Assembly: GCF_004054195.1 (NCBI RefSeq)
Contig: NZ_SBIW01000003.1
Span: forward strand, 62,001-126,000
Length of the DNA stretch: 64,000 bases
Direction of reading: 5' to 3'
Origin: Mucilaginibacter gilvus
GTDB taxonomy: Bacteria > Bacteroidota > Bacteroidia > Sphingobacteriales > Sphingobacteriaceae
Shown here: piece by piece, positions 47,601-54,486 of the stretch
Numbering within the stretch: the stretch's first letter is position 1
How the letters are laid out: every line of letters starts with the position of its first letter
Notes under the pieces: model-generated
Databases searched by the model: none
What the model was told of the DNA's origin: nothing
What the model saw: the letters and a program-made list of their open reading frames with translations, nothing else
Program-made: the position numbers and the translations under genes

Positions 47601-48192
47601 GGCCGGAGTAGGTGCTTTTACTATTACGTATACCTTTACGGCGCAAAACGGATGCGATTTTACTACATCGCAGGATATAGTGGTGAACCCTACACCAACA
47701 GTTGATGCAGGTGGAAACACCGGGCTGCTGGAAGGAGGGACTGTACTGATAAAAGCTCAGGCATCGGGTAAGAATTTAAGCTATAAATGGACCCCGGCTA
47801 TCGGGCTGGATCATGATGATGTTTTAAACCCCGTATGCGCTGCAGCTGACGACATAAGCTACACCTTAACGGTAACCAGCAGCGACGGATGCCAGGCCTC
47901 TGACGAAATTTTTGTTAAAGTGCTGAAAAAGTTGGGCGTAATAAATACCTTTACGCCTAACGGCGACGGCTTTAACGATACCTGGACCATAAAATACTTA
48001 GAAAGCTACCCCGGAAACACAGTTGACGTATACAACCGATATGGAGAAAAGGTATATTCGTCTACTGGTTATGGTATTCCATGGGACGGAACGTACAAGG
48101 GCGCCAACTTACCTTCAGGAACATATTATTATATTATAAATCCTAAAAATGGCCGTAAGGTTGTCTCGGGAAGTGTCACAATTATCAGATGA
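44689..48192 (+). CDS. PKD-repeat T9SS substrate with IgGFc-binding-like N-terminal region
   Basis: A 1167-residue protein, TTG start; it begins with signal peptide MNRVKAIGAVIAFILICCAY and no ATG is available in that region. The N-terminal half (about 25-440) resembles the IgGFc-binding-protein-like domain of Bacteroidota (GKEFWTAYM, EDDTIVEVIPTA). Three PKD domains follow (about 557-625, 640-727, 727-812), each with the WDFGDG or similar motif. Two further beta-rich segments lead to a type B gliding-motility CTD (about 1081-1167: FTPNGDGFNDTW to SGSVTIIR). It is exported by the type IX system. Its stop overlaps the PorP/SprF start by 4 bp. Confidence 0.9.
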   Translation: MNRVKAIGAVIAFILICCAYTGLAQSNQGKEFWTAYMSHIESTGQSQMSLYITGGTNTTGKVEIADGSYSIPFTVNANEVTTVQIPRSAYLKNQGQFLKGVHITALKSVAVYAHIYASSVSGATLLLPVNALGKNYYSINYTQQSNSETDNLHSYSSFMVIGTEDDTIVEVIPTANLLDGSIAGQVLTLTLKKGEVYQGLALADLTNTIIRTKSNNGDCKRIAVFSGSTKIGIGCREAGFTSDNLFQQVYPTASWGKSYITVPLKHRNYDIFRVILSDDKTNLTVNGEKTYFPVRGLYNYEINSQEPNIITADKPIQVVQYAVSQGQQLNSCQTDFFDLGDPEMIFLTPTEQTLDHVTLYSSPYYGIASHYINVVIKDAQKSTFTLDGKPYTNFTQLSRDPTYAYAQIDVSSGTHNIRAADGFNAIAYGFGQHESYGYAAGASLKNLNQFIALQDNKPNSPTQISGCKDIEYKMQLTLPYATTKIEWDFKNGNPVLTVNNPVVSSTTVKDGKTLYNYEYYKTVKFAVGDYSVTATVINPNGDVCGITTDIDFDFNITDYPDAKFTYAGNCPGEPVQFTDATDAKGSELKTWLWDFGDGKTSSLQNPEHIYAASGDYNVILTTQNINDCSNTSGAMKVHISKPPVALFKVSAPLCADKEVTITDVSAPGDGTIVKWLYDFGDGTTDTRTDKLPFTHLYAATGTYKIKLTLINDKECSSAVAEKSITVSPIPVVAFSLPDVCISDAAKFTDKSTIADNSENGFTYLWNFGDGTANAGNPNTSTAKDPQHRYSVAAVYTVSLTVTSASGCSFTKSQQFTVNGAVPKAIFNVQDKDNLCSSNPVTINEASTVDFGNITKIVLYYDYNGDRQNSETFTKENFPAGHIYRHSYPVFNGPATKTYTIYMEAFSGDACGSATEHDIIIKANPVIQVAQIGSVCREVPPIQIAVNKNGFAGTGVFSGKGVSATGLFSPAAAGVGAFTITYTFTAQNGCDFTTSQDIVVNPTPTVDAGGNTGLLEGGTVLIKAQASGKNLSYKWTPAIGLDHDDVLNPVCAAADDISYTLTVTSSDGCQASDEIFVKVLKKLGVINTFTPNGDGFNDTWTIKYLESYPGNTVDVYNRYGEKVYSSTGYGIPWDGTYKGANLPSGTYYYIINPKNGRKVVSGSVTIIR

Positions 48193-49202
48193 AGAAAAAC
48201 TTACTTTTATTCGTATTGCTTTCATTTTGTACGGCTGCATCTGCGCAACAGCGGCCACAATACACGCAATATGTTTTTAATAACTACCTGTTAAACCCGG
48301 CAGTAACCGGTATAGAGAACTACACCGATGCCAAATTGGGGTACCGCAGCCAGTGGACCGGCCTGCAGGGCGCACCGGTAACCAGCTACTTTAGCATAAA
48401 TGCACCAATAGGCGATAATTTTGTACAGGGCGATGCAACCGCATTCCCGGCATCGGGTGGCGAAAACCCATCAAGCAGATTGTTTACACAATACTACCGC
48501 GCTGCCGAACCTCACCACGGTATCGGCTTCATGATCGTATCTGATAAAGCGGGCCCCATTACGCAAACCAATATCGATGCTACCTACGCTTATCATTTAG
48601 GTATCACCGATCAGCTTAACGTTTCCGTTGGTGTTTCGGCAGGGGTGAGCCATATTAACCTTAATACGGATCTGATTACGCTGGAGAACTCTAATGACCC
48701 GGTGTTGAACAATATTAACAATAGCCAGTGGAAACCAGACCTGGGTGTTGGTGTTTGGGCCTATTCTTCAAGGTTTTACTTCGGGATATCGGCACAGCAA
48801 ATACTGCCGCAAAACCTTTACATTACTACCGGGAATACCGCGAACCAAAGTAAAACGGTACCACACTTCTTCGCCACAGGCGGATATAAGATCTTCTTAT
48901 CAGATGACGTTACCTTGTTGCCTTCGGCATTATTAAAATTTATCGACCCCGCGCCGGTAACCTTTGATGTTACCATGAAGTTATCCTTTCGTGACAGGTT
49001 TTGGTTCGGCGGTTCTTTCCGCAAGGACGATTCTTACGCGGTGCTGGCAGGCTTTAACCTCAGCAGCGTTGTAAACGTTGGCTACTCTTATGATGTTACT
49101 ACATCGGCCCTGCGCACCGTAAGCAACGGCTCGCACGAAATTGTATTGGGCATCCTATTGAATAATCGCTACAATTTAAAGAGCCCGCAGCACGGGTTTT
49201 AG
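48189..49202 (+). CDS. Type IX secretion PorP/SprF-family outer-membrane protein
   Basis: A 337-residue protein with signal peptide MKKNLLLFVLLSFCTAASAQ and the family start RPQYTQYVFNNYLLNPAVTG. Later blocks are GLQGAPVTSYFSINAPIGD, HHGIGFMIVSDKAGPI and GISAQQILPQNLY. PorP/SprF proteins form a beta-barrel that pairs with type B CTD substrates during secretion and surface attachment. Its ATG overlaps the stop codon of the large PKD protein gene (ATGA), which supports a dedicated partner role. Confidence 0.93.
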   Translation: MKKNLLLFVLLSFCTAASAQQRPQYTQYVFNNYLLNPAVTGIENYTDAKLGYRSQWTGLQGAPVTSYFSINAPIGDNFVQGDATAFPASGGENPSSRLFTQYYRAAEPHHGIGFMIVSDKAGPITQTNIDATYAYHLGITDQLNVSVGVSAGVSHINLNTDLITLENSNDPVLNNINNSQWKPDLGVGVWAYSSRFYFGISAQQILPQNLYITTGNTANQSKTVPHFFATGGYKIFLSDDVTLLPSALLKFIDPAPVTFDVTMKLSFRDRFWFGGSFRKDDSYAVLAGFNLSSVVNVGYSYDVTTSALRTVSNGSHEIVLGILLNNRYNLKSPQHGF

Positions 49203-49204
49203 TT

Positions 49205-49628
49205 AGTTCATGGCTGATAGTTTATAGATCATAGTAAGAGAGATGGCGTTTAGGTTTGAAAGTTTGCCGGTATGGCAACGGGCGCTTGTCACCAAAACAT
49301 TTCCTAAAGACGAAATATACGTTTTGTCGTCGCAGATGAAACGCGCTGCTGATTCAGTTGTGCTGAATATTGCCGAAGGATCGACCGGACAAACCAAAGC
49401 CGTTTTTAAGGTGTTTCTTACTTATTCCTTCCGCTCAGGTATTGAAGTAGTTAGCGGATTATTTATTGCCAAAAAAACGTGGCTATATTGATGATGAGTT
49501 ATTTACAGATTTATATAATGAATACGAAATATTGGTTAAAATGATCACAGCATTAAAGAACTCGCTGTGATTTTTTAATATGAACTATCAACTCATGGCT
49601 ATGATCTATGAACCATCAACTATGAACT
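49205..49628. mobile_element. IVS-like element: four-helix-bundle gene with 30-bp imperfect terminal inverted repeats
   Basis: The left end (49205-49234, starting agttcatggctgatagttta) and the inverted right end (49599-49628) match at 26 of 30 positions. Between them lies a broken gene of the four-helix-bundle family, which is named for the intervening sequences of 23S rRNA. The element sits between porP/sprF and rpoN, not in an rRNA gene. The mobility mechanism is unknown. Confidence 0.55.
49243..49570 (+). pseudogene. Four-helix-bundle (23S rRNA IVS-type) protein, frameshifted
   Basis: Frame 1 gives MAFRFESLPVWQRALVTKTF, then DEIYVLSSQMKRAADSVVLN and IAEGSTGQTK, all family hallmarks, but stops at 49491. 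The missing C-terminal part (RGYIDDELFTDLYNEYEILV to ALKNSL) continues in another frame to a stop at 49570. The break is at an A7 run (49471-49477); removing one A restores the frame. Compared with the usual length of about 115-120 residues, roughly ten residues are also absent between ALV and TKTF. It is either decayed or affected by a base-call error in the A7 run. Family members are small helical proteins that may bind nucleic acid. Confidence 0.8.
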
Positions 49629-49631
49629 AAC

Positions 49632-51107
49632 CTACAGTTCCTTTCTCAACCTCGCTACCGGGATATTCATTTGTTCGCGGTATTTGGCAACGGTGCGGCG
49701 GGCAATGTTGTAGCCTGCTTCTTTAAGGATGTCGGTTAGTTTTTCGTCTGCAAGAGGGTGGCGTTTATCTTCCTCGCCAATGTGCTCTTCCAGGATCTTC
49801 TTTACCTCTTTATTTGAAACCTCTTCGCCGCTTTCTGTTTGGATGGCTTCGCTAAAGAAGGATTTTAGCAGGAAAGTGCCGTGTTCGGTTTGTACATATT
49901 TGGAGTTTGCCACGCGCGATACAGTGGAAATATCCATGCCAATACGGTCGGCGATGTCTTTTAAGATCATCGGCTTCAGATTTTTATCGTCGCCGGTTAA
50001 AAAGAAATCGTACTGATACTGCATAATGGCGTTCATGGTCTTCAGCAGGGTTTGCTGGCGCTGTTTGATGGCATCAATAAACCATTTGGCCGAATCGAGC
50101 TTTTGCTTTACAAACTGCACCGCTTCTTTCATCTTCTTATCCTTTTGCGACGCCTTATCGTAATGCTGGAACATTTCCTGGTAGGAGCGGCTCACTTTGA
50201 GTTCGGGCGCGTTTTTGGAGTTGAGCGTAAGTATCAGCGTACCATCATTGTTACTGATGTGGAAATCTGGGATCACCTGCATTTGCTTGGTGCTTACCTC
50301 GTTGCTATCGCCTGGTTTTGGGTTAAGTTTTAATATTTCGTTTACAACGCCGCGCAGCTCAATAGAGTTCATGTTTAACGAGCGCTCCAGTTTATCGTAA
50401 TGCTTGCGGGTAAATTCGTCCAGGTAATCCTCAACCACCGTTATCGCTTTTTTGATGATAGGGTCGTTAGCGTCTTTTTTGCGAAGCTGGATCAACAGGC
50501 ATTCCTGCAGGCTGCGGGCGCCAACGCCCGGAGGGTCGAAGCTTTGGATCACTTTTAGCATATCCTCAACCTCTTCGTCTTCGGCCATTACGTTTTGCGA
50601 AAAGGCCAGGTCGTCGGTTAACGACATGATGGGTCTGCGCAGGTAGCCATCATCATCTAAACTGCCGATGATCTGCTTACCAATGGAAAAATCTTTATCT
50701 GATACCGGCAGCAGGTCAAGCTGCGATTGCAGACTCTCAAAAAACGAGCTTTGCACGGCAATAGGGATCTCTTTACGTTCGTCCTCATCATCCCCGTTCT
50801 GGTCGTAACGCGAACCGTAATCGTTTACGTTGTCTTCCTGCAGGTAATCGTCAATATTAAACTCGTCCATCTCGCCCTTTTCGTCGTCACTGTTGTAGGT
50901 GTCTTCGTCAGGGTCGCGGTCGGGGTATTGTTCCTCGGGTTCGTTTATATTAGTTAGGCTGATATCTTCAAGCGCGGGGTTTTCTTCCAATTCTTCTTTA
51001 ATACGCGTATCAAGCGACACGGTAGGCACCTGCAGCAATTTTATAAATTGTATTTGCTGCGGCGAAAGTTTCTGTAAAAGTTTTTGTTGAAGGTTCTGTT
51101 TAAGCAT
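49632..51107 (-). CDS. rpoN: RNA polymerase sigma-54 factor
   Basis: A 491-residue protein. The Q-rich region I is at the N terminus (LKQNLQQKLLQKLSPQQIQF). Region II is a strongly acidic linker (about 50-115, rich in Asp and Glu). The core-binding and DNA-binding parts follow, and the RpoN box ARRTVAKYREQ lies near residue 470, typical of the -24 element reader. It directs transcription from -24/-12 promoters with enhancer-binding proteins. It is read away from mscL and towards the IVS-like element. Confidence 0.96.
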   Translation of the reverse strand: MLKQNLQQKLLQKLSPQQIQFIKLLQVPTVSLDTRIKEELEENPALEDISLTNINEPEEQYPDRDPDEDTYNSDDEKGEMDEFNIDDYLQEDNVNDYGSRYDQNGDDEDERKEIPIAVQSSFFESLQSQLDLLPVSDKDFSIGKQIIGSLDDDGYLRRPIMSLTDDLAFSQNVMAEDEEVEDMLKVIQSFDPPGVGARSLQECLLIQLRKKDANDPIIKKAITVVEDYLDEFTRKHYDKLERSLNMNSIELRGVVNEILKLNPKPGDSNEVSTKQMQVIPDFHISNNDGTLILTLNSKNAPELKVSRSYQEMFQHYDKASQKDKKMKEAVQFVKQKLDSAKWFIDAIKQRQQTLLKTMNAIMQYQYDFFLTGDDKNLKPMILKDIADRIGMDISTVSRVANSKYVQTEHGTFLLKSFFSEAIQTESGEEVSNKEVKKILEEHIGEEDKRHPLADEKLTDILKEAGYNIARRTVAKYREQMNIPVARLRKEL

Positions 51108-52417: not shown

Positions 52418-52451
52418 TAATTAAAACATAGTGCCATTTAGGCAATTCCAA

Positions 52452-52493
52452 CTACTCACTACTCACTACTCACTACTCACTACTCACTACTCA
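52452..52493. repeat. Six tandem copies of a 7-bp unit (CTACTCA)
   Basis: Six exact CTACTCA units in a row, just before the stop codon side of the ChaN-like gene. The unit length is not a multiple of three but the tract is non-coding. It may vary in copy number. Confidence 0.85.
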
Positions 52494-54376: not shown

Positions 54377-54486
54377 AAGTCAAAAGTTTAAAGTCAAAAG
54401 TGAAAAGTTAGCCGCCTTGGTTGGGTAACTTAGAACTAACGGCTTTCTGTTTTTGACTTTCTACTTTTAACTTTCTACTTTTAACT
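54377..54486. repeat. Inverted repeat of AAGTCAAAAGT / ACTTTCTACTTTTAACT units
   Basis: The left part reads aagtcaaaagtttaaagtca and aaagtgaaaagttagccg; the right part, cggctttctgtttttgactt then ctacttttaactttctactt, is its inverted form. It fills the gap between yidD and tsaB. Confidence 0.6.

Follow-up and report, generated by a model that had tools for sequence, protein, structure and literature searches.

Why does a gene of the family known from intervening sequences (IVSs) inside 23S rRNA genes stand, at positions 49205-49628 of the window, where there is no rRNA gene, and to what kind of element does it belong? By the window we mean the whole stretch of DNA analysed here, 64,000 nucleotides long. 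We consider it probable that the element is the decayed remnant of a mobile intercistronic cassette belonging to a widespread class, with a ring-shaped IVS protein (IVP) that reads short-repeat arrays as the proposed basis of the class. The features of the locus are as follows.

48189..49202, + strand: upstream host gene, an open reading frame (ORF) co-directional with the IVP gene.
49202..49234, + strand: left (5') arm, a degenerate 7-nt array, GTTAGTTCATGGCTGATAGTTTATAGATCATAG, delimited by comparison of the inverted ends and starting at the stop codon of the upstream gene.
49243..49491, + strand: first frame (82 aa) of the IVP (S23, four-helix-bundle) gene, from PF05635 and TIGR02436 profile matches and alignment with intact relatives.
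49471..49477, + strand: A7 run at which the reading frame shifts, from the sequence and alignment with intact relatives.
49466..49570, + strand: remainder of the IVP gene in a second frame, with the C-terminal end ...KMITALKNSL, from alignment and a weak PF05635 match (profile 80-105).
~49578..49631, - strand: right (3') arm, an inverted array of the left-arm type, its outer limit being the stop codon of the converging gene.
49632..51107, - strand: downstream host gene, a convergent ORF.

The gene matches PF05635 (23S_rRNA_IVP) at 2.8e-17, with 63.3 bits against a curated cut-off of 33.8, and TIGR02436, the family that NCBI names 'four helix bundle protein', at 4.5e-15 (55.8 bits; cut-off 24). 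The original prediction of an IVS-protein gene outside any rRNA gene is thus upheld, the focal copy lying between two protein genes and not within a 23S rRNA gene; judging from their sequences, we take the upstream neighbour to be PorP/SprF-like and the downstream one, with an orthologue in almost every genome of the genus, to be RNA polymerase sigma-54-like. The inverted termini that had been described are also real, agreeing at 26 of 30 positions over the span first proposed and at 29 of 33 when 49202-49234 is compared with 49599-49631; chance similarity is ruled out by their local score of 25, where 5000 shuffles of both 100-nt flanks reached at most 16. The inverted match therefore stood, but the ends are not simply a 30-bp repeat: they are arrays of a 7-nt motif, with degenerate, inward-pointing units of the AGTTCAT/AGTTGAT type, and the right array has more units inward of 49599-49631, to about 49578. 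These ends are capable of pairing and enclose the S23p ORF, and they place on both sides of the IVP gene one type of inverted 7/8-nt array, which is what defines the class. Against intact relatives (L152, L170 and L173; 72-73% amino acid identity to the focal protein), the gene is broken as had been proposed, by the A7 frameshift and by a 24-nt loss near 49287 that removes 8 residues after WQRAL. The orthologous site in one related species (G099, locus L046), where the PorP/SprF-like neighbour is found as it is in other species of the genus, carries the same type of element with its gene likewise broken, and these three observations together make the focal copy an old, dead insertion. The prediction had read the damage as that expected of a unit no longer needing its product, and this we do not retain, because intact IVP genes are under strong purifying selection (dN/dS 0.01-0.13 for pairs with measurable dS), so that the focal copy is simply dead. 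AGTTCAT-type arms also frame the intact relatives L149, L152, L154, L160, L167, L170 and L173, and they are present at all seven of the best seven protein matches of the focal gene.

Across loci, the gene has evolved as one unit with its two arms. The arm types of two loci are alike where their proteins are alike (Mantel r = 0.76; maximum 0.10 in 2000 permutations), the same arm type being found in 97-100% of pairs above 70% protein identity and in at most 6% of pairs below 60%. Many loci of the same type are orthologous, yet in 100 pairs with more than 70% identity the outer flanks are unrelated, and the arm type is still shared in 96% of those pairs. The cassette thus exists as a unit at unrelated sites, where it is gained, lost and swapped, and it fits gaps between genes. 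At three sites, different cassettes lie between the same pair of genes in different species: metH|metF (AGTATCA versus GTTGTGT cassettes, protein identity 0.38-0.47), argC|argD (AGTTGAA versus AGGTAAA, L043/L136 versus L171, flanks 85-90% identical) and a gap between genes that we read, from sequence, as thiolase-like and acyl-CoA-dehydrogenase-like (GTATTGC versus GGATAAA). Locus L153 has a residual AGTATCA arm outside its GTTGTGT arm. The argC|argD gap is empty in several species, with ~10-12 nt between the genes; in a close relative with 90% identical flanks (L295) the right-arm end alone is left there, and L303 still has the right arm together with the last part of the gene. The argC|argD junctions show no target duplication, and a profile search found no transposase domain in the cassette ORF, so that the element does not qualify as an insertion sequence or MITE. 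The shared ends with different flanks and the empty sites in relatives that had been named as checks were found, and the target duplications were not; of the suggestion that this is a transposing or helper-spread unit, mobility of the class stands, as seen at unrelated, empty and swapped sites, but no target duplication or helper was identified.

At 114 of 122 genus and phylum loci both neighbours are co-directional with the cassette gene; the same holds for 82 of 198 control ORFs (p = 7e-23), and world-wide the bias is weaker (48 of 73 loci). The arms start a median of 1 nt past the upstream stop and end 5 nt ahead of the next start, and 87% of cassettes are tight on both sides; gaps with NCBIfam names that are occupied include metH|metF, argC|argD, sdhA|sdhB, nuoC|nuoD (own genome, L011) and accB|accC (L205). 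The focal cassette is tight between its neighbours, but, with a co-directional gene upstream and a convergent one downstream, it is an exception to the placement of its class.

The IVP family is present in 99 of 100 genus genomes and in 153 of 198 genomes sampled across the phylum. Inverted arrays were found at 77 of 93 genus IVP ORFs (83%) versus 4 of 198 control ORFs of comparable length (2%), one of the four being the focal gene itself; these percentages are approximate, because arm detection used one score threshold, and the control gene calls are simple ORFs. Control ORFs were used as the null because unrelated loci share array types, which makes a cross-locus shuffle unsuitable; the genus genomes are related, and the unrelated-flank and nonredundant tests correct for this in part only. 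Among the 77 array-framed genus loci, 71 fit a period of 7 best. The same architecture was seen at 20 of 30 phylum-wide IVP loci, at 9 of 10 cyanobacterial plasmid loci, and at 58 of 80 loci in a set whose sources include Proteobacteria, Planctomycetota, Acidobacteriota, Clostridia, candidate phyla and Methanophagales archaea. IVP genes lie on two contigs titled Methanophagales archaeon (L274 and L275), and the array ends on L275 suggest that the class extends to archaea. None of 18 scanned loci whose IVP genes have weak or absent arms had a 23S rRNA context, and a PADLOC search for a defence role gave no match.

Over 864 kb of the contig that contains the window, intergenic arrays of 7-nt period number 25 versus 1 in shuffled sequence and those of 8-nt period 4 versus 0, the remaining periods from 3 to 12 being near chance; many of the contig arrays are halves of gene-less inverted pairs, which are of several sequence types and all inward-pointing. 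Among 67 loci with protein identity below 60%, the period is 7 in 95 arms and 8 in 18, with two exceptions, array length has a median of 4.5 units, and the anchor ladder has its mode at 5, a value seldom reached by shuffles; ladders of 4, 6 and more are also present. The sole clear 6-nt case is an IVP copy in the own genome, before a folC-like gene (L009, G000:C20:315254-315565), with GTNGCA ends. Polarity is fixed, the 5' arm being richer in G than in C at 151 of 155 loci, and the order of units differs between the two arms of a cassette.

One could envision a protein that reads such arrays. There are five chains in 2GSC, the structure of XCC0516, and in 2RLD, and one paper describes XCC0516 as a homopentameric toroid (PMC4990558); by homology to 2gsc and 2rld, the focal protein family would form a pentameric ring. 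From the strict 7/8-nt spacing, the five-anchor mode and the five subunits we infer that the ring binds the array through its subunits, each of which would contact one anchor dinucleotide (AG, GG or similar). A cassette consists of ~470 nt, with one S23/IVP gene between inverted, inward arrays of about five units set 7 (in some cases 8) nt apart, and on this view the array would be the address of its own protein. Rings on the two ends might hold the unit together while host enzymes copy or insert it, and the symmetric inward arrangement would fit a pair of rings, one to each DNA end. Lying in the sense orientation in an operon gap, a cassette would gain transcription without harm to either neighbour, as for 23S rRNA IVSs in rRNA. 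The number of arrays per genome has a median of 13 where a matching protein is encoded versus 3 where it is not, which is in line with action of the protein in trans. We had to reject a resident matching protein for every array, the association being statistical only, with clear exceptions: G044, G104, G095, G118 and G089 each contain 60-102 exact AGTTSAT-triplet matches but, under the limit applied, lack an IVP protein that matches closely.

These array-rich genomes count against the mobile-cassette reading, as does the finding of neither a target duplication nor an insertion enzyme; many copies, moreover, are orthologous and stable, which is also compatible with a host function, and the ladders of 4, 6 and more count against the reading of five anchors. 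A further difficulty lies in gene-less pairs, whose interiors are unlike one another. In the PorP-like/rpoN-like gap of L047, L049, L053, L054, L055, L056, L072 and L073, gene-less AGAATCA-type inverted arrays flank a host terminator hairpin, and because the same terminator is present without them in L050 and L062, it seems that the AGAATCA arms came to lie on either side of host DNA, which goes beyond a simple moving unit. Such pairs, of several types and in other species at the focal spot itself, would be accounted for if tandem arrays spread independently and the IVP gene merely tended to become caught between them, but this is highly improbable: arrays frame 83% of IVP genes versus 2% of other small ORFs, their type tracks the protein even across unrelated sites, and the G-rich 5' arm gives them a fixed polarity.

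Alternatively, the cassettes might be the mRNA counterpart of the 23S rRNA IVS, their arms forming an RNA stem that RNase III cuts from the operon transcript, with the protein a passenger or RNA partner and spread through RNA copying or recombination. The Coxiella 23S rRNA IVS is 428 nt long, has a 28-bp stem and is associated with RNase III (PMC4990558), so that protein family, size and stem length all agree. IVSs with an S23p/IVP ORF share with the cassettes a length of ~430-470 nt, pairing-capable inverted ends around the ORF, sense orientation inside a host transcript and the commonness of decayed copies, and in predicted folding the cassette arms pair over a median of 84% of the 5' arm. 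Unlike those IVSs, the cassettes stand outside rRNA, in protein-gene gaps, and the 7/8-nt array ends are an observation on the cassettes alone. A stem would need neither the strict period nor a different unit order in its two arms, and arm-to-arm differences show no preference for G-U-compatible changes (108 versus 115, p = 0.69), which argues against selection for an RNA stem as such; since the ORF is also under purifying selection, we regard this explanation as unlikely. Long-term occupation of the same sites in many species, the low dN/dS and arms often only a few nt from the start codon would suit a host-beneficial regulator, which controls its own operon through the nearby arrays and is exchanged by ordinary recombination between homologous operons only. 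Against this stand the recurrence of one cassette at sites that are unrelated, the many species in which an operon gap occupied elsewhere is empty, and the use of wholly different operons, and we consider a regulator of this kind quite unlikely. The mobile cassette with an array-reading ring thus remains our preferred reading.

Several known systems resemble such a cassette in part. REPIN/RAYT systems consist of short inverted repeat pairs with many gene-less copies and one gene flanked by the same repeats, all of which they have in common with the cassettes; RAYT, however, is a Y1 HUH transposase, whereas the IVP protein has no such domain and its repeats are 7/8-nt arrays. TRAP, the trp RNA-binding attenuation protein, is a ring protein that binds regularly spaced AG-containing sites, one per subunit. 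It is analogous in its proposed working only, binding by an IVP ring being our proposal, and it differs in its unrelated fold, its 11 subunits and its spacing. Avd, of diversity-generating retroelements, is a remote homologue (NF033474, E 8e-4; PHROG Avd, 1e-8), but the cassette protein is not Avd: the intact relative L152 scores 19.7 bits against a curated cut-off of 80, and the cassette has no reverse transcriptase.

Heptamer repeats have been described independently. Those of Xanthomonas (GGGAATC) and Nostoc (GGGGA(T/C)T) are, according to PMC4692102, abundant, intergenic, preferentially of four units, often in convergent pairs, G-quadruplex-forming and of unknown role. They resemble cassette arms as intergenic heptamer arrays in convergent inverted pairs; the text searched (PMC4692102) draws no link to a protein, whereas here GGGAATC arrays frame the XCC0516 orthologue. 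The latter, in Xanthomonas vasicola (L205), is 84% identical to XCC0516 over 94 residues, and its gene lies between accB and accC with arms consisting of GGGAATCGGGAGTGGAGAATCGGGAATCGG and the inverse array. Arms of Nostoc plasmid cassettes are of GGGAGTA, GGGAACA and similar types. TAACTGA heptamers, 7-nt intergenic arrays like the cassette arms, are known from Beggiatoaceae, Cyanobacteria and Bacteroidetes, where they are mostly direct, upstream of genes and reported with no IVP link (PMC4679880), in contrast to the inverted arms; arrays of the reverse complement, TCAGTTA, frame an IVP gene in a Phycisphaerae contig (L246). To judge from agreement in sequence and layout, such orphan heptamer repeats may derive from cassettes, the direct test being that in Xanthomonas alone. 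Our search of the open-access literature, with subscription journals mostly outside it, gave no report linking IVP genes with heptamer arrays, and the array-bounded IVP cassette is apparently a very common, undescribed kind of mobile cassette.

A bolder generalization, which we advance tentatively and hold to be somewhat short of an even chance, is that S23/IVP proteins constitute a novel type of ring that reads arrays, each pentamer reading five anchors 7 or 8 nt apart in an array type set by the protein, and that they drive nearly universal, transposase-free operon-gap cassettes that seeded the heptamers of Xanthomonas, Nostoc and Beggiatoaceae. The cassette class as such suggests a role, open to test, for a large protein family that lacks an assigned function, and an origin for heptamer repeats known from unrelated bacteria, and it extends the term 'intervening sequences' from rRNA to ordinary operons, in bacteria generally and in some archaea. 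Should the ring read spaced anchors, the many natural pairs of protein and array would amount to a recognition code already at hand, and the function of the IVS protein would reduce to a simple binding question.

Some individual loci deserve mention. A second 7-nt array in the window, AAGTCAAAAGTTTAAAGTCAAAAG at 54377-54408, has an inverted partner and no IVP gene, and is probably a gene-less pair of AGTTGAA-like type. A near-perfect ACTACTC tandem run of 43 nt lies between convergent ORFs at 52451-52493 of the window, without an inverted partner, and a 92-nt run of ACTACTC units occurs at C25:879106-879197. Another inverted repeat family, CCCCCTGAAGGGGG, frames terminators in the genus (L047, L048, L050 and L052) and is the source of two of the control positives. 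A gene-less AGTTCAT-type inverted pair (L003, G000:C25:757403-757493) directly adjoins the end of an apparent RNase P RNA gene, as we take it to be. On an Anabaena plasmid, an IVP cassette (L285, 1186-1554) sits inside a type I-D CRISPR operon, annotated cas6|cas4, and a Nostoc plasmid cassette with perfect GGGAGTA arms (L286, 1186-1554) departs from the sense rule by its antisense position between the genes for ribonucleotide reductase beta and alpha.
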